This document shows, one piece after another, positions 9,821 through 45,604 of a DNA stretch of 64,000 nt. The DNA is taken from NCBI RefSeq assembly GCF_010499265.1, contig NZ_JAAGSC010000042.1, forward strand, positions 10,389 to 74,388, written 5' to 3'. This DNA comes from Wenzhouxiangella limi (GTDB lineage Bacteria; Pseudomonadota; Gammaproteobacteria; Xanthomonadales; Wenzhouxiangellaceae). A program made the translations under genes and the position numbers. Every line of letters begins with the position of its first letter. Position 1 is the first letter of the stretch. The notes under the pieces are model-generated. The model did not search any database. It worked only from the letters and a program-made list of their open reading frames with translations, and was not told where the DNA came from.

Positions 9821-9933
9821 GTGGGTCTCGGCAGGCAGGAGATACCTTGGATAATTTACAGTGCTGAACATTTCAGTGTGATGAATTCCCCAAAAAGCAC
9901 CCTTTTTCGGTAATCTGCCTGAGGGGGCTTCAG

Positions 9934-9952: not shown

Positions 9953-10026
9953 CGCCCCCACCGTTTTCGCGATTGCCAATAGCTGGCATACCCTCGTCAT
10001 CAAAGGGTCATCGCCAACACGTTTAA

Positions 10027-10032: not shown

Positions 10033-10275
10033 CCGAACTTTAACGCGCCTATAGCACCTGGATTGGCGCGGGTTCGACGGGTTGTCCGGTTTCGGCAACG
10101 GGTGTTTTTGGTCGGCGAGCAGTTGCTGGACGCCGAATGTCATAATATGTCACAGGGCACGGAGTAGCGGCAATCGACCCTAATCGCCCCCTCAACATCC
10201 AAGACATATTGATGGCAGCATTTGTACATATCCGGTGCCACGTTTTTGTCGCCTTACCATCTGAGCACTTCGACG

Positions 10276-10983: not shown

Positions 10984-11093
10984 TTCGCCGATGGCTGGCA
11001 ACGTTTACGATTGGCAATATGGCAACCGTTACCTATAGCCAGCCAAATTTGGGATTCAACCGAACCTTGCTGCACCTAATAGCAGAGGATGGC

Positions 11094-11936: not shown

Positions 11937-12009
11937 GACGTTAGTCTAAACAGCGCGGCCACGCTGAATCTAAATGCTCTAGGGAGCCTCTGGATAGGGC
12001 ACCGGTTTT

Positions 12010-12350: not shown

Positions 12351-12560
12351 GTTCGGAGTCCGCCCATAAAGCGGCATCCGGCCAAAAATTGATTAGAAAA
12401 CGAGCAAGAAAATCGCGCACAATCTATACCAGCCCTTCCCTTCCGGGAGAGCGAGTTAGGCGAAAATCATCGTTATTCAGAGACTCTTTAGCGCTGTTGG
12501 ATGCATTCAGCCACATCGAAACAGCTCATCATATTTCCATAAATAGTAATGGGGCTTTCC

Positions 12561-13739
12561 ATGGTTGATAAAGTGATTCTTCATATCGGTATGCATAAAA
12601 CCGGCTCGACGTCGATTCAGGAAGCGCTCAAAGACTACGACGATGGCAAGACATTCTATGCACCATTTCAAGAAGCCAACCACTCGGCTGCTATTCGATC
12701 TGCTTTCTCCAAGAGACCAGAAGACTTTCACTCTTGGCGGAAGCTCGGCCTGGATCGATCGGAGGTCCTCAGTCGCCGCAACCAATACAGGAGTCAATTG
12801 GTCAGTGATCTGAAAAGAAAGGATCGGGACCAGCTCATCATCTCTGGTGAAGACATCGGCTTGCTTGAAGAAGCGGGAAAACATGAGCTTGTTGAACTCT
12901 TAAATCGACATGCCAAAATCATTCAGGTGGTGTGTTACATCAGAGCACCGATGGAATTCGCCGCATCGTATTTGCAGCAGCAGATTAAAACTGGGAGGAA
13001 ATCGCTTCCTGAACTAATTAAGACCGATTATAAGAAGCGTCTTACTTTCTTCAAAGAGCATCTACCAACGGACCAAATCATTGTCAAATCCTTTAACCGG
13101 CAAACCTTGCAGCGGGGTTGTGTCGTATCCGATTTCTGCCGTACCTGCGGCATTGACAGCACACAAGTACCAAAATCAAGGTTAAACGAAAGCCTGAGCG
13201 CACCGGCCTTGAAGCTCCTGTATTCATTTAACAGGAGCAACGGCTGTTATCAAGGTGATCTAGTGACTCATCGGGCCCACCACCTGTTGATTCAATGGAT
13301 AGCTCACGATTACCGAACAGGTCCGGGCATTAAACAAAGCCGCTTCCTCCCGATGAGCGATTTTTCCGAGCTGGACTACTTGCGCGACAAGTTCGGGCTC
13401 CATTTTGAACCTCCCAACCCCCAGATCCACTCTGGCGATCAGTCACTTGAGGCCTGGTTGACTGACACCAGCGACATTGACATGGAACCTTTGAATCAAC
13501 GTCTCGCGCAGATCGGAGTCAATAGCCAAAATAAATCTGTTGATTTTCTTCTTAACAGGCTGTATTACCACGCACTTGTGGTTACCGCCTTACGCCATCA
13601 ACAAGTCCGCATCCAACCGAACATGATTAGCCGGGGACTATTGAGGGATGTCATAAAAAGCCTCTTCATTGCGACATTCAACACCATCAGGCGAAGGATT
13701 TTCACACCTGCTCACCGACGCGCAGACCGCAATGGGTAA
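12561..13739 (+). CDS. Sulfotransferase-like P-loop protein
   Basis: The protein (392 residues from 12561) begins [19 protein letters not shown], a textbook phosphosulfate-binding loop. [20 protein letters not shown] then SYLQQQIK occupies the second phosphate-binding position. GGGG six bases before the ATG at 12561 supports this start over the one at 12549. The C-terminal 200 residues are not recognised. The gene converges on the RgpF-like gene, with stop codons overlapping by about 38 bases. Together with the two upstream sulfotransferases it forms a sulfation cassette broken by the IS5 remnant. Acceptor unknown. Confidence 0.7.
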
Positions 13740-15948: not shown

Positions 15949-17727
15949 TCATGAGGCCTTTTTCAGATCGGGCAGACCCTGAATACCGGCTTCTTCCAGC
16001 ACAACAAGAATGGGCGGCAGCGCATTCAGGGCGGCGCGGTAAGCTTCGCGGGCAACGATTTTTTCCAGATTACTCAAATGCACCACCAGCTTGAACCCTT
16101 GAGGACTGGCCTGGGCTGCCGGGCAGCCGCATTCGGCCAGTTCGGGTAGCAGGGTGTCGGGATTGTAGGCTTTGTCCAGATCTTGAACGGTCAGGTCGAC
16201 CCCCATGACGTCCCGGGCAATGGCGTCCCAATTGATCAAAACGGGCTGGTCTTGTTCGGTCAGCAGCAAATTGGCCGGTGCAACATTCCTGTTGATCAAG
16301 ACCCGTGGCATGGCATTGACCATGTGGCGCATGTCTGCCAGGCAGTCCAGAAAGGCATCCAGAAGCTTTTCTTCCTCAGGCTCGTTGCAGCCCAGACGGA
16401 TGCGGGCAAAGCGCTCGGCGTCCAGGCGGTCGCCGAGCGAGGCAAAGCTGCGCTTCAGACGTTCAGCCAGGGCCTTGTCCAGATCATGCTGCCACAGTGC
16501 CAGGCGCACCTGGCGCAATTTGGCCGGATAGTCTTTACCGGGACAGGCCTTGAGCACACCAGAGCGCAGCGCCAGAAAGCCGCGGCCGTGCACGGCACCG
16601 GAGCCCACAAACTCAGCTGACAGGCCCAGGGCCTTCGCCGAGCTACTTTGGTAAAACTGGACCTCGCGCGCCAGGCCGGCGTCTTTGGCGTTGCCGATTA
16701 CTTTCAACCGGAGTTCTGCCTGGTCTTCGGCCTGGGGCGAGGACACATACAGCGCCTGCCCGCGCACCGCAAAATCGCACCATTGCCACTGGCGATGAGC
16801 CATCTCGGGATAGCCCATCCGGGCAACTTCTTCAAACAGATCGCGACGACGATCGGGCATCAACAGCGTCTCGAAACTGACCTCGCGCGCTTGCCGCTTC
16901 TCGCGCACGTGCTGCTCGGGATAGACCAGGGCTTCGATACGCTCGCGCTGCTGCAGCATGAAATATCCGTCCTGGGTGCTCTTGACCATGCGCTGCAATA
17001 CCTGCCGGGTCAGGATGAACATGATCAACCCGATGATGAAGTTCATAGTCGGGTCGGTCAAAAAAAGAAACACCAGTACACCGAAAGCCAGGAAAGTGTT
17101 GACGGCCGAGATGTTCTGCAATACATCTACCCGCTTTTGCACGAACCGGTCGCGGGCCTCGGCCTGCTCGGGTGCCTGGTAACGGTTCCAGAAGCGCGCC
17201 AGAAAAATGATTTCGAGGATCACGGCCACCATAAGCACGGCCACCAGGCGCCACTCAAGCAACAGCCCCAGCGCAACGCCGCCGATCACGAGCAGGAGCG
17301 TGCCCCAGGTCTGGGCAACGCGCGAAAACACATCTTTCGCGAAGTCTTCCTCGGCGTCGAACAGGGTCGCTTTGTTGCCCTGAGCGCGAATGCGCGCACC
17401 ACCCCGTGCGCCCAGGCGGCTCAACACAAGATCCGATACCAAGTAGAGGATAAAGAAGCCGACAATGCCCAGGCTCAGATAGATGATCCAGGCCTGGCGG
17501 GTTTCCTGGGTGACAAAAAACTGCATGTACCGGGGAATGCCCTCCGTCCCGAGCATGATGATGATCTTCAGCGGCAGCATGAACATCAAAATGAACGACA
17601 CCTGATTGATCACCACCAGCGGCATGGAAAACAAAAAAGACCACGGCGCGCACCGACCGACCCGCCGAGTGACGTGAACCAGGGTTCGACTGTAATCAGT
17701 GATCAGGCTGGAAAAGCTGTTGGACAT
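15949..17727 (-). CDS. Membrane protein: transporter-like TM domain plus degenerate kinase-like domain
   Basis: Of 592 residues, the first 300 or so have about five hydrophobic spans, arranged somewhat like the membrane domain of an ABC exporter but without any nucleotide-binding domain. The rest resembles an aminoglycoside/choline-kinase-type fold. VLINRNVAPANLLL stands where HGDLHPGNIL is expected, and QPVLINWDAI where the metal-binding DW/DF motif sits. The catalytic HGD is replaced by NRN, so it is probably a pseudokinase or a binding module. GAGGAG lies eight bases before the ATG. Flanked by GT2 genes, it may act in lipid-linked glycan handling or assembly. I know of no characterised protein with this layout. 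Confidence 0.6.
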   Translation of the reverse strand: MSNSFSSLITDYSRTLVHVTRRVGRCAPWSFLFSMPLVVINQVSFILMFMLPLKIIIMLGTEGIPRYMQFFVTQETRQAWIIYLSLGIVGFFILYLVSDLVLSRLGARGGARIRAQGNKATLFDAEEDFAKDVFSRVAQTWGTLLLVIGGVALGLLLEWRLVAVLMVAVILEIIFLARFWNRYQAPEQAEARDRFVQKRVDVLQNISAVNTFLAFGVLVFLFLTDPTMNFIIGLIMFILTRQVLQRMVKSTQDGYFMLQQRERIEALVYPEQHVREKRQAREVSFETLLMPDRRRDLFEEVARMGYPEMAHRQWQWCDFAVRGQALYVSSPQAEDQAELRLKVIGNAKDAGLAREVQFYQSSSAKALGLSAEFVGSGAVHGRGFLALRSGVLKACPGKDYPAKLRQVRLALWQHDLDKALAERLKRSFASLGDRLDAERFARIRLGCNEPEEEKLLDAFLDCLADMRHMVNAMPRVLINRNVAPANLLLTEQDQPVLINWDAIARDVMGVDLTVQDLDKAYNPDTLLPELAECGCPAAQASPQGFKLVVHLSNLEKIVAREAYRAALNALPPILVVLEEAGIQGLPDLKKAS

Positions 17728-17739
17728 TCTGATTACTCC

Positions 17740-19227
17740 TCAATCACTGCCGGAAGCGCCCCGTTTGGGCAGCATGGCGTCGGCCACCGGAAAGGGACGC
17801 TTTTGGGGGGATTGTGGCATGTACAGGTCTGCAATGCCTTTGGCTGATGCATGCCAGTGTGCGTGAGCGCGATGATAGTCATGGCGCAACCCTTTGAGTT
17901 TTGTCATTAAATGGGTTTCGGACACGCGGGTTAGCGAATTCGGCTCGGAACGGGCAAAAGCCAGAGGCACCTCGGGCATGGCGGTACTAAGCGCCCGCAT
18001 TCCCCAGGCTGTGTAAATCCGGGATACATACTCTGCATCACAACTGCAGCGTAATTCGTCCCAATAACCCAGCGTATCGAAAACCGCCCGTCTAATGAGC
18101 AGAGAGGACGTATTGCACCGCACCCAACCAATCCAGGCCGAAGGCGAGCCCCAACCCCCAAACATCAACTCAGGCGTGGTGCGAACCCAGTTTGAGAAGC
18201 AACCCTTCAGTTCAGGCTGCTGCTGCATCAAGGTCATTTGGCGCTCGATTTTCTGGGGGTGTGACCAGTCATCGGCATCGTGCACGGTGATGAACTCGCC
18301 GGTGGCCGCGTTCAGCGCGTGGTTGCGGGCGGCGTATGGCCCACCGGGCTGTTCGGGCTGCAACAGCTTTACCCGCGCATCCTGGGCTGCGACGGCCTCG
18401 ACAGCGGCTGCCGTCTGATCGTCAGAGCCGTCATCGACCACAATGATCTCCAGGTCCTGATAGGTCTGGGACAGCAGGCTTTGAAGCGCTGTGTCAACCG
18501 TCGACTGCGCGTTGTAAGCCGCCATCAGCACGCTGACCAGCGGACCGTGCGCTGGGCGTCCCGCTTCCGTGAGCAAGGCGTCCATCCTCGATGCGCTGCT
18601 GTTCTTCAATTTCAGCGGCAGCAAGCCATGCCGCGCATACCAGTCGTTGAGATGAGCCAGCCAGGCCGCTCGACGCTCATTACGATCGTCGGCCGCCGCT
18701 CGCAGGTAATTAGCCCTCAGAAGGGCCACGTCTGCATGGTCCGGGTATGCAGCTTCCAGCCACTGCAGCCGCTTATTCGCGACTTGTAATTGGTCAGTGT
18801 GCACCAGCGCGTCGGCCTCCAGCAACGCCGGCAAATGGCGAAAAGGTGATTGTTTTTGTAAATCTCGCTCAAAATCCGCATCTTGCAGGGTTGCAATGAC
18901 GTCGGCCCAGCGCTCGTGCAGCGCATACCAGCGCGCGATCAGCCAGCACAGGTAATCGCGATCCAGCGGCTCGAGCTTGGCCCGGTCACGCAAATAGGCC
19001 TGCCTGACTCGATCAAAAACGGACTCATCGAACCAGAGGGCAACATGGTCTTCAGCTGCAAAGCGGCCTTCGTGGCGGCCGTGGGCATGAAAATGAGCCC
19101 ATGCATTCTCACCGGAACGAGCAACATCGGGGTATTGCGACAGGTACCAGCGCGGAGAAAAAAATCCAGGCGGGCGTGGCAGTTTGAGCTGTGCATGCAG
19201 CCAGCTTTTCAGTCGTTTTGACAACAT
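17740..19227 (-). CDS. GT2 family glycosyltransferase with N-terminal YPDVA-type module
   Basis: In this 495-residue product the N-terminus carries FFSPRWYLSQYPDVARSGEN and a later GRHEGRF. This short module precedes many polysaccharide glycosyltransferases. A helical segment follows, then a complete GT2 domain from about residue 225: VSVLMAAYNAQSTVDTALQS, EIIVVDDGSDDQTAA, GPYAARNHALNAATGEFI and HDADDWSHP (metal-binding acidic cluster). It probably transfers a sugar from a UDP donor in the cytoplasm. It is first in the GT part of this operon, separated from the RNase gene upstream by about 600 non-coding bases full of repeats. Confidence 0.8.
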   Translation of the reverse strand: MLSKRLKSWLHAQLKLPRPPGFFSPRWYLSQYPDVARSGENAWAHFHAHGRHEGRFAAEDHVALWFDESVFDRVRQAYLRDRAKLEPLDRDYLCWLIARWYALHERWADVIATLQDADFERDLQKQSPFRHLPALLEADALVHTDQLQVANKRLQWLEAAYPDHADVALLRANYLRAAADDRNERRAAWLAHLNDWYARHGLLPLKLKNSSASRMDALLTEAGRPAHGPLVSVLMAAYNAQSTVDTALQSLLSQTYQDLEIIVVDDGSDDQTAAAVEAVAAQDARVKLLQPEQPGGPYAARNHALNAATGEFITVHDADDWSHPQKIERQMTLMQQQPELKGCFSNWVRTTPELMFGGWGSPSAWIGWVRCNTSSLLIRRAVFDTLGYWDELRCSCDAEYVSRIYTAWGMRALSTAMPEVPLAFARSEPNSLTRVSETHLMTKLKGLRHDYHRAHAHWHASAKGIADLYMPQSPQKRPFPVADAMLPKRGASGSD

Positions 19228-34185: not shown

Positions 34186-34974
34186 CTAGCCGACTGAGTA
34201 CTTACTCGCGGAGGGCGAATTTAAGAGAATCTCTGGGTGCGGACCGTATTTGTTAAAATCGAATGGAATCACATCTAACTTAGCTTTAGTAACTGACCGT
34301 AATAATCGATTCTGAATTTCATCTATAGAAAACTCAGACTTAAAAATCGTCCTTCCAACCCAATCAATATATGGTTCTTTTGTACCTGATGCCAAATACC
34401 TTGACATATAAATGCGATAACTCAATTTCTCTGGCTTTTTGAGGTTATTTGCATGCACCCAAAACGCGCCGCCATAATTACGGCAGATTCTATTCTGCTT
34501 TATAACAACCGGATAGTCACCAAAATTATCAGTTCGTCTAAACTCGACAAGACCCCGCCGAAACAGATACAGCTCAGGACCGAACTCTGGCCTTTTCCGA
34601 GGCTGATGATTAATATCTCCAGATAAATTGGGGCCACTTAGAAGATAAGAATCAAATCGGTTGCCAATATCGGAAAACAACCGGCCGATGTGATCATACG
34701 CGATAAAATCCGCATCCCATCTAATGACCCACGGGTTACTCGCTTTCTCCTGTGCGAAATTCTTAAGGTCACCTAAGCTGCTTATCCCGTGCTGTTCATA
34801 GCAGTAGACCCTCACCTTTTCATTCTTTATACTTCTGACTCGATCAAGGGTATCATCGGTAGAGTTATCGTCAACGAAGACCACTTCCGAAACATATGGC
34901 AAGATTGATTGAATAGACTCATAAACCCACTCTTCTTCGTCAAAAGCCACTACCATCGCAGTTACCGGATACAT
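34186..34974 (-). CDS. GT2 family glycosyltransferase
   Basis: The product (262 residues from 34974) is a compact GT-A enzyme: VTAMVVAFDEEEWVYESIQS, VVFVDDNSTDDTLDRV and VIRWDADFIAYD, where DAD is the probable metal/UDP-sugar motif. I prefer the ATG at 34974 because GGAGAG precedes it; a TTG lies 15 bases upstream. This gene and the pyruvyltransferase upstream are distinctly AT-richer than the T2SS and RNase genes, suggesting recent transfer. It is probably the last gene of the minus operon. Donor and acceptor are unknown. Confidence 0.75.
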   Translation of the reverse strand: MYPVTAMVVAFDEEEWVYESIQSILPYVSEVVFVDDNSTDDTLDRVRSIKNEKVRVYCYEQHGISSLGDLKNFAQEKASNPWVIRWDADFIAYDHIGRLFSDIGNRFDSYLLSGPNLSGDINHQPRKRPEFGPELYLFRRGLVEFRRTDNFGDYPVVIKQNRICRNYGGAFWVHANNLKKPEKLSYRIYMSRYLASGTKEPYIDWVGRTIFKSEFSIDEIQNRLLRSVTKAKLDVIPFDFNKYGPHPEILLNSPSASKYSVG

Positions 34975-35073
34975 TGACTCTCTCCCCAAACCAGAAAAGT
35001 CTTCAATCAGCTAATACTTAGATTGTCGATCGCGACATATGCTGGTTGCAGTCGTTTAAATCAGATACATTTT

Positions 35074-35853
35074 TTAACTATTGATCCACGGACATACATC
35101 TAAGAGGTCGTTCGAATTAAAATTCACGGCGGTATATCGGTCCAGTAAGCGGCTTATTTGTGTTTCAATACCGCTATCATCAGATATAAGATAATCCAAA
35201 GAACGACCAACAGACGAGAGATAATCCATAAACTTAAAGCCGTTGCCTTGAACCTTCGTATTAAGATTTATCGCCACATTCGGTATCTGGAAAGAATCAG
35301 CGAAAACAATACCGTGTAATGAACTTGAAACAATCACTTCGCATTCCAGCATAGATGCGAGAAATTCCTCAACATTATCCGTTGAAACATCAAGCACTTT
35401 GCACGACCCCATGTCACGCAAACGCTGCCAAACTGGATTACTATGATCAACTTGGTGCGGAATAAGCCCATATTCGACCCTGGCAGATGGACGAGACCGA
35501 TAAAACTGACTCACCAACAAACCGGGATCGCCATAATTTTCCGGACATGAAGGAAAGCCGCCTTTCAAAAGCTTTTCGCGCGTCAAAGGGCCGCGCACCG
35601 CCAAAACATTCTTTATACTACTTGGAACCCTTGATCTCGCACTAATAAATCCAGCGCCCCAGACTGTAGATTGAGCATTTGCATACTCGAGAATTGAACC
35701 GGTCGCAACAATGTTGTCTAGTTGTTCGTGATGCGTGGACCTTGGAGCCCTCAGATCGTAAAATCTTGGACTGTTACCAGTCATTTTCCTATAGAGGTAA
35801 GGAGTGACATTGTCACCGACGTTCTTCCCCTTCCACCAAAAAAGATTACTCAT
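35074..35853 (-). CDS. Polysaccharide pyruvyl transferase family protein
   Basis: The product (259 residues from 35853) shows the PS_pyruv_trans pattern: LFWWKGKNVGDNVTPYLYRK at the start, VWGAGFIS and VLAVRGPLTREKLL, then NYGDPGLLVSQFY and VIVSSSLHGIVFADSFQIPN near the end. These enzymes (ExoV/CsaB type) put a pyruvate ketal on a sugar from phosphoenolpyruvate, adding negative charge to a glycan. GAGG seven bases before the ATG at 35853 decides the start. The 300 or so bases upstream, to 36165, are AT-rich and hold no gene that I can see. Some family members are glycosyltransferase-like, so the exact reaction is inferred. Confidence 0.8.
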   Translation of the reverse strand: MSNLFWWKGKNVGDNVTPYLYRKMTGNSPRFYDLRAPRSTHHEQLDNIVATGSILEYANAQSTVWGAGFISARSRVPSSIKNVLAVRGPLTREKLLKGGFPSCPENYGDPGLLVSQFYRSRPSARVEYGLIPHQVDHSNPVWQRLRDMGSCKVLDVSTDNVEEFLASMLECEVIVSSSLHGIVFADSFQIPNVAINLNTKVQGNGFKFMDYLSSVGRSLDYLISDDSGIETQISRLLDRYTAVNFNSNDLLDVCPWINS

Positions 35854-36165
35854 AGTAAGCCTCAACAGAAACTAAACTTCAAAATACAAAAACCAAAAAG
35901 ACAATTTAATTCTTTCGCTTAATGACACGACCACAACTGTAAACACCTTTGAAATAGGCACGAACCTTCGCCAAGTCGAAGCGACAGCGCGTCAAAATGC
36001 GTAATTCTTAACAAAATTGACTTTGACCCAAACCGCCTTGGTTCTAACTGACGCTATCGTGACATGACGGGGTAGAAAAATCCCGTTGCATATCTCAAAT
36101 ACGACCGGCATAACGAGCAGCAAGTTCTGGATCCCAATTACCACATAACCTAAGCCCATCCTATG

Positions 36166-37185
36166 TCACAGATCCGAAGCGGGGCCAGACTCTTTGAGAT
36201 CTTCCCACTGGAGAACAGACAAACACATATCGGAAAGCGACCTCCTGGGCCGCCACCGAGTATCCGCTTTGAGTCGCTCACCAGAAGCATAGACTTCCGC
36301 CGGATCACCAATACGCCGCTGTTCAAAGCGCAATGGAACTCTACTCCCCATTGCGGCTTCGAACCTAGTTACGATATCGATCACGCTATAGCCATGCCCC
36401 GTCCCGACATTATAGACGAGGAGTTTCGACGTTTTCTTGGAAGCCTCCAGTGCCTCTACGTGCGCTTCAGCTAGATCCATTATATGGATATAGTCTCGAA
36501 CACCGGTCCCATCGCGCGTCGGAAAGTCCTTCCCGAACACCGATAAAGCTTCTTGCTCTTTCTTGAGCACACGAACAATTTGAGCAACCAAGTTATGACT
36601 CTGTTCTTTAACAACTTCACCAAGAAATCCAGCCGGATGGGCTCCTACCGGGTTAAAATACCTGAGGATAACCCCACGCATATTGCTTCGGGTGGCAATA
36701 AAGGACGCAATGAGCTGCTCGGCCGCTAATTTTGTCTGCCCGTAGGGGTTTATGGGTTTAGTCTCTGTGAGCTCAGTAACTGGAAGTTCCGTTGGAATGC
36801 CATAGACAGCGGCCGTCGAACTGAATACAAATCGAGAAGCATGATACTTATCCATGCATTTGAGTAAACAAAGTGTTCCTTGGACATTGTTCTCCCAGTA
36901 TGCCAAGGGATCCCTGATGCTCTCAGGAACAGATTTATAGGCTGCAAAATGAATGACGCCATCAGGTCTGAAAGCTTCAAATACTCTTTCCAGCCCCTCT
37001 AAATTTAGAATGTCGTGCCTCCAAAATTTCGGCTTGACGCCTGTGGTCCTTCCTATAGCATCCAGAACGTCCTCTGAAGAGTTGGAGAGATCATCAACAA
37101 TCGCAAGCTCGTGGCCCTGGTTTATAAGTACTGTCGCAGTATGCGATCCGATGTAACCCAGCCCACCAGTGACTAAAACTTTCAA
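36166..37185 (-). CDS. galE: UDP-glucose/UDP-GlcNAc 4-epimerase, GalE/KfoA type
   Basis: A full-length 339-residue short-chain epimerase. The NAD-binding TGGLGYIGSH is at residues 7-16, then IHFAAYKSVPESI, FSSTAAVYG and the catalytic YGQTK (Y-x3-K), with ILRYFNPVGAHPAGFLGE later. It interconverts UDP-Glc/UDP-Gal and in some members UDP-GlcNAc/UDP-GalNAc. The start is a TTG overlapping the TGA of the KfoC-like gene (TTGA), so the two are translated together. In E. coli K4 the kfoA epimerase supplies UDP-GalNAc to KfoC, and the same job is likely here. Sugar specificity cannot be read with certainty. Confidence 0.9.
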   Translation of the reverse strand: MKVLVTGGLGYIGSHTATVLINQGHELAIVDDLSNSSEDVLDAIGRTTGVKPKFWRHDILNLEGLERVFEAFRPDGVIHFAAYKSVPESIRDPLAYWENNVQGTLCLLKCMDKYHASRFVFSSTAAVYGIPTELPVTELTETKPINPYGQTKLAAEQLIASFIATRSNMRGVILRYFNPVGAHPAGFLGEVVKEQSHNLVAQIVRVLKKEQEALSVFGKDFPTRDGTGVRDYIHIMDLAEAHVEALEASKKTSKLLVYNVGTGHGYSVIDIVTRFEAAMGSRVPLRFEQRRIGDPAEVYASGERLKADTRWRPRRSLSDMCLSVLQWEDLKESGPASDL

Positions 37186-39254
37186 TTAATTATCCCACCA
37201 GAGCCAACATTCTTGAAGCAATACTTCCGACATCCCGGATTCTCGGTGGATGCCGGCGCCACTTGAATCAGCTCGATTCCCTGACGATTCAGGGCGTTAT
37301 TGGCAGCAATAAAATGGTTCTCCTTCTGCAATTCAACCCGCTTGACCGACGTGTTATGCCCGTGCAAGCGACGGATATACGACCTAGTATTTATATGTTT
37401 AATCGGCGCAACTTCACTGAGTTTAAGATAAATATCGTAATCCACAGCGTTCTCCATTTCTTCAGAAAAGCCTTGCGTCATATGCCACGCTCTTGCGCTA
37501 AACATTCGAAAATGATGAACGATCATAGCAGTTGCCAGCTTTTCTCGGGAGAAAGCGGGCCAGTTATATCCTGGCGTCATCTCTCTAGTTGATGCGTCCT
37601 GATTCCAATTGCTCGTGTAGACCAGCCCCAGATTCGGATCATTTTCGAACTCGTGCAGGCATAATGCCACGGCGTCCGGGAGCAACAAATCATCCGAATC
37701 CAACTGACCGATGTAGTGGCCGCGACAGTTTCGGACGGCGGTATTTGACGCGGAACCAATGCCGCCATTTTTCTGGCTGACTATTCGGACACGTGGATTT
37801 TTTTCATACTGGTTTTGTAGAACCGTCAATGTTTCATCAGTTGAGCCGTCATCGCAGACCACAACTTCCAGATCGGTTACAGTTTGTGCCAGAGCACTGT
37901 TGACGCAGTCAACGATAAAGGCTTGCGCATTGAAGGCGGGGATGTATATGGACACCAACGGCCGACGCCGGATACGAGCATTCTCTATATTTGGGCTCCG
38001 TTTCCGATAGAAAATGGGGACTCTATCTTTCACCATCGGGATTGTGATGACCTTTCCTTGCTTACGGTCGATTTCATTTTCGCCGCCCGGCGGTTCCTGG
38101 TGATACGCAAGGCCCTCGGGCAGAGAGCGGAAAAAGCAGCCCTGCCGAAACAGACGATAGCCATACTCATTATCCTCACCGCCCCAGGCAGAGAAGTCTT
38201 CGTCGAACCCCCCAACCAATTCAACCCATTGACGCGAAAAAGCAACGTTCCCTCCGCTGAAATAACGAAAAGGATGAGTGCACAATCGTAGTTGCTCAGT
38301 GTGCTTGAAAGCTTCTAACCGCCAATCTACCGAAACCTCTCCATCCCGTTTTCCGGAGAGTTCATTTTTACTGAGTACTAACGGAACGGTTTCAAGGTAA
38401 TCGGGATCATTAAGAAAGTCGCTGACGTCCAAATCTCCAGTATCGATGTACTTCCTGGGGCCGATGAGCGCCCAGCGCCAACTCAATGACAATGCCTCGC
38501 AGTAGCTTTGTACCCAGCCTCTCGAAGGCGCCATATCGCAGTCTAGGATTGCAATCCAGTCGTGGCGGGCCGCACGAATGCCCAGGTTACGAGCGGCACA
38601 AAGCCTGTAGCCAGAATCGGGCTGACGCAGATATTTGACATCCAGCTTACTCTCGTAGCCTCTGACAACTCCTTCGATATCCACACTGCTGCCATCATCA
38701 ACCACTAGTACTTCGAAAACAAATTGGGTCTGCTGATGACAAAGACAGGCCAGCGTGATTGCAAGATGATGTGGCCGGTTGAAGGTCGGGATAATGACGC
38801 TCAGCCCTGTATCAGAGCGACGGATCTGTGAGTCCTTAAAGTGCCGTAGCATCCAGCAATAATCATTAGTTGATTCCGGCAGTGCGGGCAGCTCCAGACC
38901 ATCGGGCCAGTCGGAGGGTACTGTCTGGGGGTACTCCGAAACCTCTATGGGCTGGGAGGTGTTTTCCCACTGCTTTCGCAACTCCTGAATAAGCCGTCGT
39001 CGCTCGTCGTCGGAGAGCGCAGCCTTATTTGCATTGGACAAGAGTATTCGGGTAACGGGATCCATGACATCTACCGCAATCCCGGAAGAGTCAATACCCG
39101 ACTCCGATTGACCCAACCGCGCTCGACATTGGGCGATACTGTAATCCACCCATTCCACACCGGTTACAGCTTTGAATTCCTCATAAAGCTTGAGGGCGGC
39201 CCGATATTGGCCGGTTTCGAATAAGCGATGCGCTTCTGTCAGTGAGAGGGTCAT
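37182..39254 (-). CDS. Bifunctional glycosaminoglycan polymerase, KfoC/PmHAS-type
   Basis: 690 residues from the ATG at 39254, close to the length of E. coli K4 KfoC. The order of parts is as follows. There is an N-terminal helical segment (LFETGQYRAALKLYEEF), then LELPALPESTNDY. GT2 domain A1 has SVIIPTFNRPHHLAITLACL, AILDCDMAPS (DCD at 238-240) and WGGED at 357-361. GT2 domain A2 has LVSIYIPAFNAQAFIVDC and GQLDSDDLLL (DSD at 519-521). This is the architecture of class II hyaluronan and chondroitin synthases, which alternately add a HexNAc and GlcA. All key acidic motifs are intact. Coupling to an epimerase favours a chondroitin-like backbone. A UDP-glucose dehydrogenase is not in the window. 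Confidence 0.88.
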   Translation of the reverse strand: MTLSLTEAHRLFETGQYRAALKLYEEFKAVTGVEWVDYSIAQCRARLGQSESGIDSSGIAVDVMDPVTRILLSNANKAALSDDERRRLIQELRKQWENTSQPIEVSEYPQTVPSDWPDGLELPALPESTNDYCWMLRHFKDSQIRRSDTGLSVIIPTFNRPHHLAITLACLCHQQTQFVFEVLVVDDGSSVDIEGVVRGYESKLDVKYLRQPDSGYRLCAARNLGIRAARHDWIAILDCDMAPSRGWVQSYCEALSLSWRWALIGPRKYIDTGDLDVSDFLNDPDYLETVPLVLSKNELSGKRDGEVSVDWRLEAFKHTEQLRLCTHPFRYFSGGNVAFSRQWVELVGGFDEDFSAWGGEDNEYGYRLFRQGCFFRSLPEGLAYHQEPPGGENEIDRKQGKVITIPMVKDRVPIFYRKRSPNIENARIRRRPLVSIYIPAFNAQAFIVDCVNSALAQTVTDLEVVVCDDGSTDETLTVLQNQYEKNPRVRIVSQKNGGIGSASNTAVRNCRGHYIGQLDSDDLLLPDAVALCLHEFENDPNLGLVYTSNWNQDASTREMTPGYNWPAFSREKLATAMIVHHFRMFSARAWHMTQGFSEEMENAVDYDIYLKLSEVAPIKHINTRSYIRRLHGHNTSVKRVELQKENHFIAANNALNRQGIELIQVAPASTENPGCRKYCFKNVGSGGIIN

Positions 39255-39270
39255 AGACTGCCGGAGAGTA

Positions 39271-40167
39271 TTAGAGGGCCGCCTCCAACTCCACAACCCT
39301 GTGTAAGAAACTGTGTTTGGCGCGTACGAAAGCGGCGCTTTGCCGCGCACCAGCCAGCAGGGCCGGGTAGTCCAGCAGCATCTCGATCAAAGCTTGCCCG
39401 AACACGCCATCTTCTGCCTGAATAATACTACAACCTGTATCGATCAGGCCAGAGAGCCCTGGGTGGTGATCGGTCAGAACGGGCAATCCGCAGGCTAATG
39501 CATCAAAAATACGGTTGTTAACATAGCCATATTCACGCATATCAGGCCAATGGTCGTTAAGTGTGATACGGGCACTGCGGTATACATCGCCCAGTTTGGG
39601 ATTGGGTAGAGTTTCCAGCGTCAAGTGACGTTCCAGACCAGACGTATCCCAGCCAAAACCAATCAGTTCCAGACCAGGTAGACGCTCTGCCACTTCCGCA
39701 ACTATCGGCCTTTTCTGGCCACGACTATTGCCGATGAAAATAATGCCGCGTCGAGAGTCCGGCTGATTTTTCGGCGGTGGAAAGAATACTTCGGTATCCG
39801 TGCATTGCCATAGCGTCAAGATTTTACCGGGATGCCGCTCACTCAGTTTCTCGGCATGCAGTGCCGATGCAACGCAGACCAGATCGTAGTCCTCGACTTC
39901 TTCGTCACTGATGTCCTCGGGATGACTGATCACCCACAGGATATGTAGGGCTTGACGGTTGCTACTGGTTTTCTGATAGCGGTAGAGCCCCCGCAAAACG
40001 AGGACAATATCGCTGTAAGCACTGTCTTGCCAGTTAGTGTGGTACTGGACCTGGGCTTCGTGGCCACGGGCATGCAGGGCTTTGCACAGTGAACGACAAA
40101 ACCAGTAGTCACCCCACTTGAAGCGGTAGTCATTGGCCGGTGCAGGATTCTTGATCAACCAGCGCAT
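39271..40167 (-). CDS. GT-B glycosyltransferase (Glyco_trans_1_2 type)
   Basis: In this 298-residue product the N-terminal part reads IKNPAPANDYRFKWGDYWF. The C-terminal half has IIFIGNSRGQKRPIVAEVA, MREYGYVNNRIFDALACGLP and VLTDHHPGLSGLI, the donor-site pattern of CgeB/SpsB-like GT4 enzymes. It is shorter than most two-domain GT-B proteins, but both halves seem present. It lies between the degenerate GT2 gene (five bases) and the KfoC-like gene (the latter's start overlaps its end by 17 codons or less). It probably builds a primer, linker or side chain. Donor unknown. Confidence 0.7.
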   Translation of the reverse strand: MRWLIKNPAPANDYRFKWGDYWFCRSLCKALHARGHEAQVQYHTNWQDSAYSDIVLVLRGLYRYQKTSSNRQALHILWVISHPEDISDEEVEDYDLVCVASALHAEKLSERHPGKILTLWQCTDTEVFFPPPKNQPDSRRGIIFIGNSRGQKRPIVAEVAERLPGLELIGFGWDTSGLERHLTLETLPNPKLGDVYRSARITLNDHWPDMREYGYVNNRIFDALACGLPVLTDHHPGLSGLIDTGCSIIQAEDGVFGQALIEMLLDYPALLAGARQSAAFVRAKHSFLHRVVELEAAL

Positions 40168-40172
40168 TTTAG

Positions 40173-41624
40173 CTATCCGTGTTTGGTGATCATTTGGCGA
40201 TCAAGTGCGGCGAGCTCCATGGTGAAACGCTTAATAATTTCGCAGTGGGCCGGCAAGCACTGGCCCCGCTTCAAAATACGAGCCCTGAGCTGAAGTTGTT
40301 CTTCGAAGCCGTTATGCCGCGCATATGGATGCACGATGAGGGCTGGGCTTGCGCAAGGCGTGGTCGGATGCAATAGGGCCTTCAAAGTGTTTCGCACGAT
40401 CTCCTCTAACCGCCCGAGCCCGGTTGAGGGTGGATTGGCAGCCAACCAATTCGGATCAGGCGCTAACAAGGTCGGGGTCCGGTACCAGTCATAATGCAGC
40501 AAAGCAAGTGCATAGGGCATTGGCGAATCACCCATCACCAGCAGTGTATCCGGCGGATCATTAACCGTTTGTTCAGTTATTTGTTTCCAAGCAGTGCGCA
40601 GAGAGCCGGTCAACGCAATAAATGGCTCACCAGCATCTGGCGGCGAGGACGATTCCTGCAGCTTTGGACTATGCGTCTCGTCCCAGACCCAAGCTTGATA
40701 GATCAAGGCCTTTTTGAGGAGGAATTTCCAAGCGGCCAGATCAAGACCGGCGCCACATGCAAGTAGGGTGACGTCTTCATTGCAAGGCTTGATGTCGGCT
40801 TCTATAGGCGGATCCTGCGTTTCGGAGGCGACTTGCGCCAGCCCTTCAATCGTAATGGCATCGCGCTCGGGACTCTCCGGGCCGCAATTGCCCTCGACCA
40901 GGATTGCAGCATTGGGCCAATCATGTTTCATGTACCACTGTGCCAGCATCCGCGGCTGCGTCCACGGTCGAAACCCACCCAGGCAGGCTGATACCGCTGT
41001 TCTGACGCAGGTCTCCGACAATGAAGGTAGCTGTACCAACGACCATGACTGACTTTGCCCGACGTTGGGATCAGGGCATTCCCGGGTGGTAGTCATCCAG
41101 GCGCTGGGGTGGTGCTGAAATGTCTCCAGTCTTCTGACCAGGGCATCCGGTGCCATCGGGTGGGCCGGATCTATCCAGCAAAGAAACTCTCCGCGGGCAG
41201 ATCGCACACCGGCATTGAGGAAGTCAGCCGGATGCCGGCCCAGACAAGGCACTGATCTCACCCTGTCATCGTCAGTCGGCCAGGCGGTTGAATGTTCATC
41301 ACTGACTGCGGCATTCGTTACAACAAGCAGCTCCCAAAGTGGCCAGATCTGGTTTTGCATCTGGTCGATGGCTTCAGCAAGCTGCTGGCCTTGGGATAGA
41401 TCCGTCAGCACCAGGATGACGGAAAACACGGCGCCCTCTTCCCAGGCCAGTTGATTGTTTTGGTGACCCTGTGCTTGGCCAAGCGCTCGAAGGAGAAAGT
41501 GCCTTTGCTGCTTGTAGTCACGTAACTCGGCCTCGCAGACGTTGAGCTCCCCGAGCAAACGGTTGCGCATGGCGCGCCGGCTTTGCTCAAGCCGTGCTAC
41601 TGCCTTTTCGTCTGCTGAACTCAT
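40173..41624 (-). CDS. Degenerate GT2-like protein of unknown role
   Basis: A 483-residue protein starting with a helical stretch (AVARLEQSRRAMRNRLLGEL). A GT2-like fold follows: FSVILVLTDLSQGQQLAEAI, WELLVVTNAAVSD, FLNAGVRSARGEFLCWIDPA. The usual metal-binding D-x-D is replaced by IDPAH, so ordinary sugar transfer is doubtful. The C-terminal half (including LLVMGDSPMPYALALLHYD) is unrecognised. It sits directly after the FkbM/coiled-coil gene (24 bases), in the position the sulfotransferase gene takes in the other operon. It could be a scaffold or binding protein. Confidence 0.5.
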   Translation of the reverse strand: MSSADEKAVARLEQSRRAMRNRLLGELNVCEAELRDYKQQRHFLLRALGQAQGHQNNQLAWEEGAVFSVILVLTDLSQGQQLAEAIDQMQNQIWPLWELLVVTNAAVSDEHSTAWPTDDDRVRSVPCLGRHPADFLNAGVRSARGEFLCWIDPAHPMAPDALVRRLETFQHHPSAWMTTTRECPDPNVGQSQSWSLVQLPSLSETCVRTAVSACLGGFRPWTQPRMLAQWYMKHDWPNAAILVEGNCGPESPERDAITIEGLAQVASETQDPPIEADIKPCNEDVTLLACGAGLDLAAWKFLLKKALIYQAWVWDETHSPKLQESSSPPDAGEPFIALTGSLRTAWKQITEQTVNDPPDTLLVMGDSPMPYALALLHYDWYRTPTLLAPDPNWLAANPPSTGLGRLEEIVRNTLKALLHPTTPCASPALIVHPYARHNGFEEQLQLRARILKRGQCLPAHCEIIKRFTMELAALDRQMITKHG

Positions 41625-41648
41625 TGCTCTAACCCATAGTGCCCGGAC

Positions 41649-43436
41649 TTAAACGCCCGCATCAAGGGTGAACAGGGATGTGGCCGGGATGCCGGGCAAG
41701 GCACAATAATCCAAGGGCAGATGCCGCTCTTGAGCAGTCGCAGTCCAATGCTGATCCAAGCTCTCATCATCCCCATGAACAACGATCGTCAACGAGCAGC
41801 CGGGGAACGTATTCAGCATCAGCGTCAAAGCGGGTCCGGGCTCAAAGTCACCAGAACTGGCATCAATAAACGCCATAAGCCTTAGGGTTTTACCCTGGGT
41901 AGCTGCAGCAATCGATTCCAGTTTGCGCTGACAGGCGGGAAACAGCGGATGATTTCCCGAGGACGATGCCTGCTCAACCAGCGGTGAGTACTCGACCTCA
42001 ACCAGATGCTGTAGATCAAGTGCTTTGACCTGGCGACTAAGGCGATCACATGAGACCGAAACGTGCTCAAACGCAACTACGGGTGCCGGCAATAGCCTGG
42101 TCTGGTCTGGCTTATCGGGCTGTCTATCCTGACGCAGCGCCATTTCGCGGGCGTCGGAGGACGCGTTTTCTTCAGTCGACTGCTGTGCCTCATTGTGTGG
42201 CGACAGCTCTGAAAAGTCAGACCAGCGTTCCTTGATGGCATCAGCAAACAGCAGTGCGGCAGCCCCGCAGTCGAAGATCAGCACCAGTTCCGGGTCTGAC
42301 TCCTCAAGATGCTCAAGCAAAATGAGAGACAGGTTGGGCGGCAGCTGCGACTGAAAAACCGGCTCCAGCAAAAGGTGCCCGGATCCCAGCCGCGACTGCA
42401 GTGCAGCATAGGCTGTGATATCGCTGACCGAACTTTGGATACCTTGCAGAATGGCCTGGCGCATTTGGCCAAGGCTATCGCGTTGAACATCCAGCAGCCG
42501 CCGCATTTCGGCCAGTTCGTTGCGGTCTTGCAGTTGGGCCTCAAGAGACATAACGCGCGTTCGCTGTTCAGCAATTCTCGCCTGCATGATGTCTTGCTGA
42601 TGAACTGACTCCTGAAGCTCGCTTTCACGCTCCGAAAGCTGGGCTTCCAGCGACTTGATCTGCTCCTGCAAGGACGCCTTCTCGCGCCCAAGCTTCTCCT
42701 CGAGTTCACCTCGAGCCTGCTCAGACCGCTCCAGCTCCGCCGAGCGCTCCGAGAGCTGGCCCTCCAGCGCCTTCAGCTGCTCCTGCAAAGTTTCATTCTT
42801 TACGGCAAGCTGGTTAAGCGCGAGGTGGTAGCGGGGCCAGTCCTGGTCGGCATCATCCGGCACGCCGACGCGGCGATAACCCAAGGCCTCCAGTGACTGG
42901 AGTAACTTCGAGGCCGGCTCGGCGCCCTTATGCAAAGCCTCTAGTCCGGCCGCCAGAAATATGCGGCTAAACAGATGCTTATGGCTGGAGGCAGCAAGTT
43001 GATCGAGCACCTTGGCTTCTTCACCGGGCACATCGATCATTAACCAATTTTCCTGCTGCTCAGAAGGCTGCACGAGTGCAAGCAGGTCGGCCAAGGAGAG
43101 AGTTTCCACAACTTCCTCACCGACCACCTGAGCACCGGGCCAGACCTTTGCCAATTCCGGCGCATCTCTCAAACTGCTGAGCAAGGGATAGCTACAAAGC
43201 CGGAGTTTATCCCGGCCCGAATGATCCGACAACGCTGCCCCAATAACTTCGACACCTTCCATGTTCTCAGACTGTCGGAGGAGCTCTGGCAGAAACTCAG
43301 GATGCGGCTCCAACAGCACGATTCGTAAAGCACCCCGCTGCTGCCAAGTTTCCAGATCTTGACCGATCCCGGCGCCCAAATGGATGATGAGATCGGGCCC
43401 TGCCAGCTCGGCTGTCTCGCCTTCAAGCCAGTTCAT
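41649..43436 (-). CDS. FkbM-like methyltransferase domain plus coiled coil (copy 2)
   Basis: In this 595-residue product, residues 1-215 match copy 1 (7194-8531) motif by motif: LIIHLGAGIGQDLETWQQ, LLEPHPE, SYPLLSSLRD and MIDVPGEEAKVLDQL. A coiled coil (LKALEGQLSERSAELERSEQ and following heptads) then occupies residues 215-360 or so. Unlike copy 1 there is an extra C-terminal domain of about 230 residues (PNLSLILLEHLEESDPELVL through to CALPGIPATSLFTL) that I do not recognise. The ATG overlaps the upstream TGA (ATGA), so it is coupled to the sulfotransferase/coiled-coil fusion. The role may be capping or assembly of the glycan; unproven. Confidence 0.65.
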   Translation of the reverse strand: MNWLEGETAELAGPDLIIHLGAGIGQDLETWQQRGALRIVLLEPHPEFLPELLRQSENMEGVEVIGAALSDHSGRDKLRLCSYPLLSSLRDAPELAKVWPGAQVVGEEVVETLSLADLLALVQPSEQQENWLMIDVPGEEAKVLDQLAASSHKHLFSRIFLAAGLEALHKGAEPASKLLQSLEALGYRRVGVPDDADQDWPRYHLALNQLAVKNETLQEQLKALEGQLSERSAELERSEQARGELEEKLGREKASLQEQIKSLEAQLSERESELQESVHQQDIMQARIAEQRTRVMSLEAQLQDRNELAEMRRLLDVQRDSLGQMRQAILQGIQSSVSDITAYAALQSRLGSGHLLLEPVFQSQLPPNLSLILLEHLEESDPELVLIFDCGAAALLFADAIKERWSDFSELSPHNEAQQSTEENASSDAREMALRQDRQPDKPDQTRLLPAPVVAFEHVSVSCDRLSRQVKALDLQHLVEVEYSPLVEQASSSGNHPLFPACQRKLESIAAATQGKTLRLMAFIDASSGDFEPGPALTLMLNTFPGCSLTIVVHGDDESLDQHWTATAQERHLPLDYCALPGIPATSLFTLDAGV

Positions 43437-45400
43437 GATCTTGACCGTCCATCGGAGCTTGAGTCCGCGGTTTTATTGCCACGAAGCAGCTTCATAACGC
43501 CCCTAAGCGGACGCGTTAGCTTCCAGGATACGGAGCTCTCGACATAGTTCAGTCGACGTTGCTGGAAGCCCAGCTTTCTGTTCAGCCGCTCGACCTCGCG
43601 CTCAGCCGCCGAAAGACGCGCATTTTCCAAATGATAGTGGGCCAGCCGCTCTTCCAGAAAATGCACTTGCTTGATAAGTTTTTGGCTATCCGACCGAGCC
43701 TGTTTTGAACGCGTGAGATCAGCAACTTGAGCTGAAGCTTGCTGGGCCAGTTGTTCAGCCTGCTTTAACTCGTCCTGCAGCTGGTCGTTCTGCGCTGACA
43801 GATGAGCGCGCTCATCGACCGAGGCCAAAAAGTCTTGATGAGCCATCCTGATCAAATCTGACTCGCTCCCGCCGCCGTCGGTATTAAACAGTGTGCTGGC
43901 ATTCAATTCGGCCAGAAGAGTCCGCGAACCCAGGGCGGATTCAATCAAGCGCTGTGCCAATACGCGCAGCATGGCCGGCATGCTTGCAGCTTCAGGTAAG
44001 GAAAGAGACGCTGAAGGTGACTCAAGACCGAAGTGTTTGGTCAGCGAGACTTGCAGCTTTGAGGCGTCCGAACATCCCGATTGAAGCTGGATCAAGACGA
44101 TCCGTTTGCGATGGCGCCTGACTACCGCCAGTACGGTCTTTGTTGACTGCACCCAATCTTCCAAAGCACGATCCAGCGCCTGGCCCGCCTTGAGGGCCGC
44201 AGCCAACTGGACTTTTGGCACATGCACCACCACCAGCGCTTTGCACGCCGCATTTTGGTTCAGCTGAGCCAGTAATGACTCAGGTCCTTCAACCTCTGAG
44301 GTTGGAAGCACTGAGCACCCGGCGGCCGACAACCAGACTGCAAGTGGACTGGCATCCCAGTCTGGCGGCGCCCATAGCGCGATTTTAGATGCATTGCTCA
44401 TTTTCTTGCCCTTATTGCTATGCTGACTCGGCGTTCGCATTTGGCCACTACTGGCTGGCTGGCAATCGTTCGAAAATCCAATCTTTTCAGCTAGTTCATC
44501 TGCCTCAACAAGACACTGATTCAACCGCGCCCTGAGCAAGGCCTGCTTGTACTGATATTCCGTAGCGGGCGGATTGGCAGATGCGCGCAGTTGCTGCTGC
44601 AACTCGGCGTCTTGTTGCTCAAACTCGGCCAGCACCGAATCCAGCGACTTCCGAATCACATGGAAGGTCTCTCCTCTCTGCAGTCCCCGCCAGTATTTAT
44701 GGCATTCAGGCAGCCACCAGGCGTCAGATTCCTGCCCCGACTCGTGCTGCAGGCCCGATTCCACAACCGTCGCCGCCCGCGATGGCGTCAGACCGAGCAC
44801 TCCGACCGCCTTCAAGGACTCTGCCAGCGCGCTGAGCGTTTCCACCGGATGCTGGATCAGGGCTTCGTAATGAATCCTTAACGGTTTTTGCGGCCATGGA
44901 TAATCGTCAACCGCCATATTGTAACGCGCCCAAAGGGCCTGCCCAACGCGCATCGGCAAGCCATTTCGCCGCCGCAAAGATCGAGCAACGGCCAGCGGGT
45001 GCCGAATCACCTGGATGGGCACGACATCGGTCAGCCAGGGCGCAAATAACGGCCACAACAAACACAAACGAGGCTCCTTCAGCGCCCAGACCGGGTGTGC
45101 GCAAAGCCGATCCGCGAGCGCCTGGAACTGCCCTTCCAGCTCGCCGCGCGTGGCATCAGATACTCGAGACACGTCAAAATCAGCGATCTTCCACCAATCG
45201 GCCCCAACTGAATGCAGGAGCTGATCGCACAGCTGACGGGCGTCCCGACGTTCCTCAAATCCGCGCGGGTTCTCAGGATATACCGGGGTCAGCTCCTCCT
45301 GCGTGCCGACATAAGCGCCCATCGCCCTCAGGGCCGCCGTCACCGCCGAGGTTCCTGAGCGGTGCATTCCAAGTACAACCAGGCCGCGAGTACTGGTCAT
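43433..45400 (-). CDS. Sulfotransferase fused to coiled-coil SWKLTRPLR protein
   Basis: About 655 residues from the ATG at 45400; the frame also has an ATG at 45469. The N-terminal 250 residues form a sulfotransferase-like domain: GLVVLGMHRSGTSAVTAAL (phosphosulfate loop), WALKEPRLCLLWP and VIRHPLAVARSLRRRNGLP (3'-phosphate segment). After a helical linker, an in-frame ATG at 44401 with AAGGG eight bases upstream begins the second half. That half is homologous to the stand-alone protein at 8555-9820 (VLAVVRRHRKRIVLI, coiled coil, then VSWKLTRPLRGVMKLL). This looks like a fusion of two genes that are separate in the first operon. It probably modifies or helps assemble the glycan at the inner membrane. 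Confidence 0.65.
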   Translation of the reverse strand: MTSTRGLVVLGMHRSGTSAVTAALRAMGAYVGTQEELTPVYPENPRGFEERRDARQLCDQLLHSVGADWWKIADFDVSRVSDATRGELEGQFQALADRLCAHPVWALKEPRLCLLWPLFAPWLTDVVPIQVIRHPLAVARSLRRRNGLPMRVGQALWARYNMAVDDYPWPQKPLRIHYEALIQHPVETLSALAESLKAVGVLGLTPSRAATVVESGLQHESGQESDAWWLPECHKYWRGLQRGETFHVIRKSLDSVLAEFEQQDAELQQQLRASANPPATEYQYKQALLRARLNQCLVEADELAEKIGFSNDCQPASSGQMRTPSQHSNKGKKMSNASKIALWAPPDWDASPLAVWLSAAGCSVLPTSEVEGPESLLAQLNQNAACKALVVVHVPKVQLAAALKAGQALDRALEDWVQSTKTVLAVVRRHRKRIVLIQLQSGCSDASKLQVSLTKHFGLESPSASLSLPEAASMPAMLRVLAQRLIESALGSRTLLAELNASTLFNTDGGGSESDLIRMAHQDFLASVDERAHLSAQNDQLQDELKQAEQLAQQASAQVADLTRSKQARSDSQKLIKQVHFLEERLAHYHLENARLSAAEREVERLNRKLGFQQRRLNYVESSVSWKLTRPLRGVMKLLRGNKTADSSSDGRSRS

Positions 45401-45604
45401 GCCCTGAGATTTCTCGCAAATCCACGACACATTTGGGCTGTCAGCATGAACAACAACATTGGCCGTCATGATAAATCATCGCGGAACCCGAAAAACGGGA
45501 AGGCACACCCTTTCGGGGGCGTGCTAAGCTACGAATTCATTCGAGAAATCAGGTGCTAGCGGCCGGCATCCAGAGGCATGGCAGTCTATCGAGGGGATGA
45601 CTAA

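Follow-up and report, generated by a model that had tools for sequence, protein, structure and literature searches.

A KfoC-type glycosaminoglycan synthase in a sulfotransferase-bearing glycan island of Wenzhouxiangella limi: a candidate source of a sulfated chondroitin-like polymer

The window analysed here is a stretch of 64,000 nucleotides of the Wenzhouxiangella limi genome (C34:10389-74388, C34 being contig NZ_JAAGSC010000042.1; genome of 3.35 Mb in 44 contigs, 99.6% complete), and positions refer to the window unless a contig or locus is named. It carries a same-strand, close-packed gene run on the minus strand (45469-36166), of which a sulfotransferase fusion is the first gene and a GalE-type epimerase the last, with a class II glycosaminoglycan (GAG) synthase of the KfoC/PmHAS type directly before the epimerase. 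A sequence-only reading of positions 36166-45400 had proposed that this cluster makes a sulfated GAG-like capsule. Synthase matches were sought in 60 relatives and in a 398-genome phylum sample. GTDB genomes were searched with the synthase alone, which returned 0 relatives, and with the synthase aligned with KfoC as the query, which returned 17 close relatives. Hidden Markov models (HMMs) of accessory domains were built from genes adjoining the synthases of other loci, without window sequences, and 20 shuffles were made for each window protein. A scan for promoters and terminators gave results no better than those from shuffled sequence.

The synthase open reading frame encodes 722 aa from a GTG at 39350 or 690 aa from an ATG at 39254. 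The protein consists of an N-terminal helical part followed by two glycosyltransferase family 2 (GT2) modules, A1 and A2 (two PF00535 stretches), which are predicted to transfer N-acetylgalactosamine (GalNAc) and glucuronic acid (GlcA), respectively. It is 56% identical to KfoC of Escherichia coli K4 (PDB 2z86), with 2z86/2z87 matched over 620 residues (E 6e-237), and both DDGS sites, DCD, WGGED, HQEPPG, and DSD are conserved across 15 synthases. An AlphaFold (AF2) model made with those 15 sequences (pLDDT 80.9) was superposed on 2z86_B with Z 42.8 and a root-mean-square deviation (rmsd) of 2.1 over 595 aligned residues; the runner-up fold (Z 26.8) matched one module only. Given the full-length match to KfoC, the superposition, and the limitation of the runner-up to one module, the protein is not an unrelated GT2 enzyme, and the two-domain architecture with intact DCD, WGGED, and DSD motifs described in the sequence-only reading is upheld by homology, motifs, and model. 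By these comparisons, 37182-39254 is a genuine class II GAG synthase, for which alternating polymerisation of an N-acetylhexosamine (HexNAc) and GlcA is predicted.

The synthase stop codon TGA and the epimerase start codon TTG share a 4-base TTGA overlap (37182-37185), and the epimerase scored 385 bits against TIGR01179 (galE, cut-off 262), which together bear out the proposed coupling to a GalE/KfoA-type enzyme. The epimerase is 39-41% identical to epimerases of GAG loci. At the gatekeeper position (Tyr299 in E. coli GalE) it carries Val, where five epimerases from other GAG loci (KfoA-like) carry Ser or Cys and the second GalE of the genome carries Leu. By sequence, Val is compatible with the use of UDP-N-acetylglucosamine (UDP-GlcNAc) without proving it. 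The A1 stretch RAA..AILDCDMAP...WVQSY...ALIGPRKYIDT agrees with KfoC, and these residues together with the coupled epimerase would weakly favour chondroitin over hyaluronan. Both the UDP-glucose dehydrogenase and the synthesis of 3'-phosphoadenosine 5'-phosphosulfate (PAPS) on which the proposal depends were found in the genome, on contig C31: a K4-type Ugd sharing 65-73% identity with full-length Ugds from 11 GAG loci, and, as the PAPS source, CysD and CysNC (a fusion of CysN and adenosine 5'-phosphosulfate [APS] kinase). A genome search with PF01507 matched CysD and TilS only and found no PAPS reductase (a weak second match, considered as a PAPS reductase, was rejected as TilS), so that the PAPS seemingly does not feed a PAPS reductase. 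It seems not obviously meant for sulfate assimilation, as expected if it serves sulfotransferases.

The first gene of the run, 43433-45469, scored above the Sulfotransfer_3 (PF13469) cut-off of 27 both as a whole protein (27.9 bits) and over its N-terminal 343 aa (31.1 bits), in agreement with the claim that a sulfotransferase fusion heads the operon. Its motifs GMHRSGTS and RxPxxxAxS are conserved in 19 relatives, and domain, motifs, and PAPS supply point to a predicted PAPS-dependent sulfotransferase. The four additional sulfotransferase-like genes claimed at 5960-13739 fared unevenly: 10222-10983 stands, 10974-11936 is borderline, and 12549-13739 and 5960-7186 have motifs and sub-threshold matches only. 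A further Sulfotransfer_2 gene lies just beyond the window (C34:5158-5814). PDB sequence searches with the sulfotransferase-like proteins returned nothing significant. In the congeneric genome G027, a fused ATP sulfurylase/APS kinase, a GT2, a sulfotransferase, and a glycosyltransferase (38% identical to 39271-40167) stand in a row (L130:12578-18302), a candidate compact sulfated-glycan locus without a class II synthase; this neighbourhood confirms the members of the family as sulfotransferases associated with PAPS synthesis and with glycan genes.

Table 1. Features of the GAG synthase operon and of the surrounding glycan island (window positions; GT, glycosyltransferase; PSB, phosphosulfate-binding; PB, phosphate-binding).
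Feature	Position	Strand	Evidence
GAG-locus N-terminal domain fused to sulfotransferase-like P-loop region (IPRSGTT)	5960..7186	-	Sulfotransfer_3 only E 0.06
FkbM-like methyltransferase with coiled coil, paralogue of 41649-43436	7194..8531	-	PF05050 29.4 bits, TIGR01444 46.9 bits
Second KfoB-like protein with coiled coil, domain at ~9233-9613	8555..10003	-	HMM E 1.1e-10
Sulfotransfer_2 protein (HIPKTAGVT, FVREPLARFVSYY)	10222..10983	+	42.2 bits, cut-off 22; firm
Borderline Sulfotransfer_2 protein	10974..11936	+	21.6 bits, cut-off 22; 22.1 in genome search
Sulfotransferase-like protein by motif (GMHKTGSTS)	12549..13739	+	Sulfotransfer_4 E 0.029, below cut-off
Membrane protein	15949..17727	-	phmmer 2e-37 L035_14521, 1e-36 L034_14504, 4e-32 L016_3535
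KfoG-like GT2 protein	17740..19227	-	HMM from 9 other GAG loci, E 8e-94
GT2	34186..34989	-	phmmer 4.5e-19 and 8.9e-10 to the GT directly after the synthase in Comamonas and Oceanisphaera
Polysaccharide pyruvyl transferase family protein	35074..35865	-	PF04230 60.8 bits; GC 0.439 (low)
GalE-type UDP-hexose/UDP-HexNAc 4-epimerase (KfoA role)	36166..37185	-	TIGR01179 match, identity to GAG-locus epimerases
Class II GAG synthase (KfoC/PmCS/PmHAS type)	37182..39254	-	KfoC homology, AF2 model, clade
A2 DXD motif (DSD)	37692..37700	-	QLDSDD in 18/19 synthases; exception L032, a split gene
A1 WGGED motif	38172..38186	-	Kept in 19/19 synthases
A1 DXD motif (DCD)	38535..38543	-	Alignment with KfoC; ILDCDM in 18/19 aligned synthases
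GT with Glyco_trans_1_2 domain	39271..40167	-	38% relative adjoins a sulfotransferase in congeneric G027
Coiled coil with weak GT2 domain	40173..41624	-	PF00535 24.0 bits, cut-off 23.3
FkbM-like methyltransferase domain, coiled coil, and C-terminal domain	41649..43436	-	PF05050 23.1 bits
Sulfotransferase, KfoB-like domain, and coiled coil; first operon gene	43433..45469	-	Pfam and HMM
KfoB-like domain of 43433-45469	43892..44254	-	HMM from 12 other GAG loci, E 1.8e-9
Sulfotransfer_3 domain with GMHRSGTS (5'-PSB-like) and RHPLAVARS (3'-PB-like)	44813..45379	-	31.1 bits, cut-off 27

Five further window proteins share domains with the neighbours of class II synthases in 17 other genomes, among them the KfoB-like and KfoG-like proteins. 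Over these 17 loci, the KfoB-like domain recurs in 13, the C-terminal domain of 41649-43436 in 8, and the KfoG-like protein in 15 (10 strong). Within the window, the KfoB-like HMM matched only 8555-10003 and 43433-45469 (best shuffle 0.64), and the HMM of the C-terminal domain, built without window sequences, matched only 41649-43436 (3.8e-22). The KfoG-like protein is 31-37% identical to glycosyltransferases at GAG loci, the N-terminal domain of 5960-7186 also occurs in the gene that lies upstream next to the synthase in two Pseudomonas (window-free HMM, E 3.9e-29), and the membrane protein at 15949-17727 has relatives on C31 and, in both Microbulbifer loci, downstream of the synthase at a distance of a few genes. 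With GAG-locus domains spread in this way, the window holds a scattered GAG locus, larger than the 36166-45400 of the sequence-only reading; the K4 region-2 type genes (epimerase, KfoB, KfoC, KfoG, and Ugd) are all represented in the genome, scattered rather than contiguous. The use of KfoB-like and FkbM domains as GAG-specific markers was dropped because the congeneric genome G018 has both without a class II synthase; 7194-8531 is 50% identical to L128_14728 of that genome. The pyruvyl transferase gene lies 300 bases downstream of the epimerase. Two related gene sets are seen in the window, 8555/7194/5960/4352 (4352-10003) mirroring 43433/41649/.../37182 (37182-45469), and the start of 4352-5938 resembles the KfoC N-terminus by eye. 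The island also contains a gene for a fatty-acyl-AMP ligase that includes a carrier-protein domain and a thioesterase-like part (51665-54721), and between its halves a 2069-aa protein of CarboxypepD_reg/SdrD_B-type repeats (27225-33434), likely a surface protein.

The KfoB domain is not recognised by Pfam, and kfoB is listed among the K4 genes of unknown function (PMC3673904). A model of the KfoB-like domain made from 8555-10003 (pLDDT 80.2, pTM 0.77) was compared with known structures; in VIA-align, sulfotransferases made up 50 of the 50 best rows, with TPST2 at the top (Z 11.0, rmsd 3.5, 165 residues), and in Foldseek heparan sulfate 3-OST-1 ranked first, with a weak E value (4.5e-3). When the profile of K4/Pasteurella-type KfoB alone was compared with that of the sulfotransferase family, the probability was 83.5 over 181 columns; 60 column shuffles reached no more than 1.3, and a comparison with GalE gave 7.1. 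Intact PAPS motifs were not found in the aligned KfoB-like domains, where R-S-G-T and the 3'-PB Ser are not conserved. These comparisons predict for KfoB a sulfotransferase fold in which the PAPS motifs are degraded (9218-9793 and 43880-44434 in the window; L020:7810-9582 and 11 other loci). The idea is not wholly new, since KfiB of the E. coli K5 heparosan locus, where the synthases are of a different class, has already been termed a putative sulfotransferase (PMC13171606).

The best segments of the 17 close synthase relatives are 49-58% identical, followed by a gap to ~27%. They come from Escherichia, Thalassotalea, Vreelandella, Comamonas, Oceanisphaera, Actinobacillus, Avibacterium, Neisseria, Pseudomonas (2), Psychrobacter, Cupriavidus, Arsukibacterium, Moraxella, Microbulbifer (2), and Leclercia. 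A tree places the window synthase within a 19-row GAG-synthase clade (support 100/100), far from the outgroups. It is 50-58% identical to all other synthases, whereas those are 62-76% identical to KfoC, which places it among the more divergent members. No class II synthase was matched in the 60 relatives, and in the 398-genome phylum sample only this genome gave a match; with matches absent from both samples apart from this genome, the observation is not a chance one. Searches of viral contigs, phages, and plasmids found no synthase. GC is 0.51 for the synthase and 0.49 for the epimerase, against up to 0.66 for neighbouring genes, and both genes were likely acquired horizontally. At its low-GC end the island is bordered by several transposase genes (2266-3210; L018:15-965, 3074-4024, and 7946-9586). 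Among the other genomes, Pseudomonas capeferrum (L028), P. parafulva (L030), and Microbulbifer halophilus (L034) have class II synthases with KfoB-like, KfoG-like, or FkbM-type partners, and in Microbulbifer sp. HZ11 an APS kinase gene (L035:440-1063) lies ~9 kb upstream of the synthase. A 706-aa protein of G018 (L129:12377-14497) has a KfoC-like N-terminus and two GT2 modules that resemble A2 or KfoG, not A1, and is possibly another kind of two-module polymerase.

Class II synthases depend on a lipid anchor and on export by a separate system (PMC10939387). KpsC/KpsS (PF05159), present in 14 of the 17 other class II genomes, were not found in this genome (controls positive), and neither was Wza/KpsD (PF02563; control genomes positive). 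A K4-type capsule was therefore rejected, and it can be held with high confidence that the polymer is not a KpsC/S-type capsule. Of the sulfated GAG-like capsule put forward in the sequence-only reading, the KfoC-type synthase and the sources of UDP-GlcA and PAPS thus stand, while the search for a capsule exporter contradicts the capsule itself. A KpsC/S-free class II group exists, since the synthase occurs in two Pseudomonas and in Microbulbifer halophilus in the absence of KpsC/S. The likeliest export route is a Wzm/Wzt-like pair (O-antigen-type ABC transporter) on contig C26, which adjoins glycosyltransferase genes and a methyltransferase gene.

The explanation preferred here is that, with this operon, a chondroitin-type polymerase and its epimerase have joined a sulfated-glycan island; taken as a whole it is held tentatively, at a little less than an even chance. 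Ugd from C31 would oxidise UDP-glucose (UDP-Glc) to UDP-GlcA and, judging from its family, 36166-37185 would epimerise UDP-GlcNAc to UDP-GalNAc. The GT2 modules of 37182-39254, whose architecture and motifs were observed, would by the family mechanism alternate the addition of GalNAc and GlcA at the non-reducing end. CysD/CysNC would make PAPS, with which 43433-45469, possibly together with the 5960-13739 set, would sulfate the chain in the cytoplasm under guidance of the KfoB-like domain. Without KpsC/S or Wza, the chain would not become a group 2 capsule and might leave through the Wzm/Wzt-like pair as an O-antigen-like or released polysaccharide. Of the parts of this explanation, a class II GAG-type backbone is very probable and GalNAc rather than GlcNAc in it is somewhat favoured, while sulfate on that backbone is nearly a toss-up, leaning slightly to the negative.

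Several observations weigh against it. The genus is rich in sulfotransferases; in G018, genes for KfoB-like, FkbM, and sulfotransferase proteins follow one another, and a sulfotransferase of G027 shares 49% identity with 43433-45469, in both cases without a class II synthase, so that the sulfotransferases of the genus act on a substrate other than a class II GAG and the sulfate may sit on another sugar. In the 17 other synthase genomes, no PF13469 or PF03567 gene was placed by coordinates close to the synthase, PF00685 not having been searched there; the nearest placeable one is tens of kb away, and by this measure the pairing of synthase and sulfotransferase is peculiar to this genome. The tree does not settle the placement of the window synthase inside its clade and so indicates neither neighbour specificity nor origin. 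Synthase and epimerase look like additions to a pre-existing sulfotransferase set, and sulfation of the new chain by such an older sulfotransferase is plausible. It is a doubtful but serious alternative that the synthase makes an unsulfated chondroitin-type polymer, as K4 and Pasteurella do, and that the sulfotransferases serve a separate glycan of the genus that shares the island; the synthase-free gene sets of G018 and G027 and the lower GC of synthase and epimerase, as from a later insertion, speak for it. It leaves aside, however, that a sulfotransferase fused to a KfoB-like domain leads the close-packed run of the synthase and that 5960-7186 combines another GAG-locus domain with a sulfotransferase-like P-loop.

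The identity of the sugars is a separate matter, since PmHAS and PmCS are close relatives with different donors. KfoC accepts UDP-galactose (UDP-Gal) and some UDP-GlcNAc, with Gal and GlcNAc incorporated in vivo (PMC7764085), and this, together with Val where KfoA-like epimerases have Ser or Cys, would suit the same system with a hyaluronan-like (GlcNAc) backbone or one with another hexose (Gal), the GalE acting mainly on UDP-Glc/UDP-Gal. Such a backbone is improbable in view of the KfoC-like A1 stretch, and hyaluronan needs no dedicated overlapping epimerase. Still less probable is an enzyme that makes one or a few additions, supplying part of an O-antigen or another repeat unit instead of polymerising a long GAG chain. 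The lack of KpsC/S lipid-primer enzymes and of a capsule exporter in the PF05159 and PF02563 searches, the many other glycosyltransferases, pyruvyl transferase, and RgpF in the island, and the intrinsically non-processive nature of class II synthases (PMC10939387) would fit it, but the full two-module architecture is retained beside a KfoG-like partner, and the two Pseudomonas and one Microbulbifer show that such synthases occur without KpsC/S elsewhere. A silent acquisition, in which intact genes yield no polymer under ordinary conditions, would match a GC-shifted horizontal insertion among transposases that has no counterpart in the rest of the sampled family. Such silence is very improbable, given that the frames are open, the active-site motifs intact, and the operon genes closely packed.

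The system of this genome resembles the E. coli K4 locus (kfoA, kfoB, kfoC, kfoF, kfoG; 2z86/2z87) in its synthase (56%, both motifs), epimerase, and KfoB-like and KfoG-like proteins; the Ugd of a K4-like Escherichia whittamii locus is 69% identical to that of this genome. It differs from K4 in that the genes extend over ~40 kb and two contigs without KpsC/S or Wza/KpsD, and in that a sulfotransferase domain is fused to the KfoB-like domain and several more sulfotransferase-like genes are present. With PmHAS and PmCS of Pasteurella multocida it shares two fused GT2 modules in a peripheral synthase that has no channel of its own and depends on separate export (PMC10939387), but the 690-aa protein lacks the long C-terminal part of PmHAS (972 aa) and no HexABCD-type capsule locus was found. 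The sulfated capsule of the marine gammaproteobacterium Vibrio sp. KMM 8419 likewise has PAPS genes, sulfotransferases, and ABC export in a polysaccharide cluster, although its backbone is rhamnose-glucose (Rha-Glc) rather than a GAG and its description includes no class II synthase (PMC11641403). Pontiella exopolymers are a reported bacterial sulfated GAG-like polymer with putative GAG sulfotransferases; they come, however, from another phylum, their structure is unsolved, they are mostly N-sulfated, and the GT2/GT4 cluster was described without a KfoC-type synthase (PMC7356697). The system in W. limi may be a variant of the K4-type system not described before, making a sulfated chondroitin-like surface sugar.

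Chondroitin sulfate has been described as exclusive to animals (PMC11641403), and as of 2020 no GAG-active sulfotransferases were known from prokaryotes (PMC7356697). A native bacterial sulfation route would directly test the animal-exclusive view and would offer an alternative to animal-derived material, as well as enzymes that could be set beside the engineered E. coli pathway (PMC7925653). For kfoB, a gene of unknown function, the fold prediction provides a structural hypothesis that is testable in E. coli. A bolder version of the preferred explanation, judged rather unlikely, is that the bacterium makes a genuine sulfated chondroitin-like polymer without any tie to animal-type enzymes, its sulfotransferase having been recruited by the KfoB-type fusion and KfoB itself being a decayed chain-binding sulfotransferase in the unsulfated bacterial GAG systems; if true, bacterial GAG loci would descend from, or would have been assembled beside, sulfating systems.

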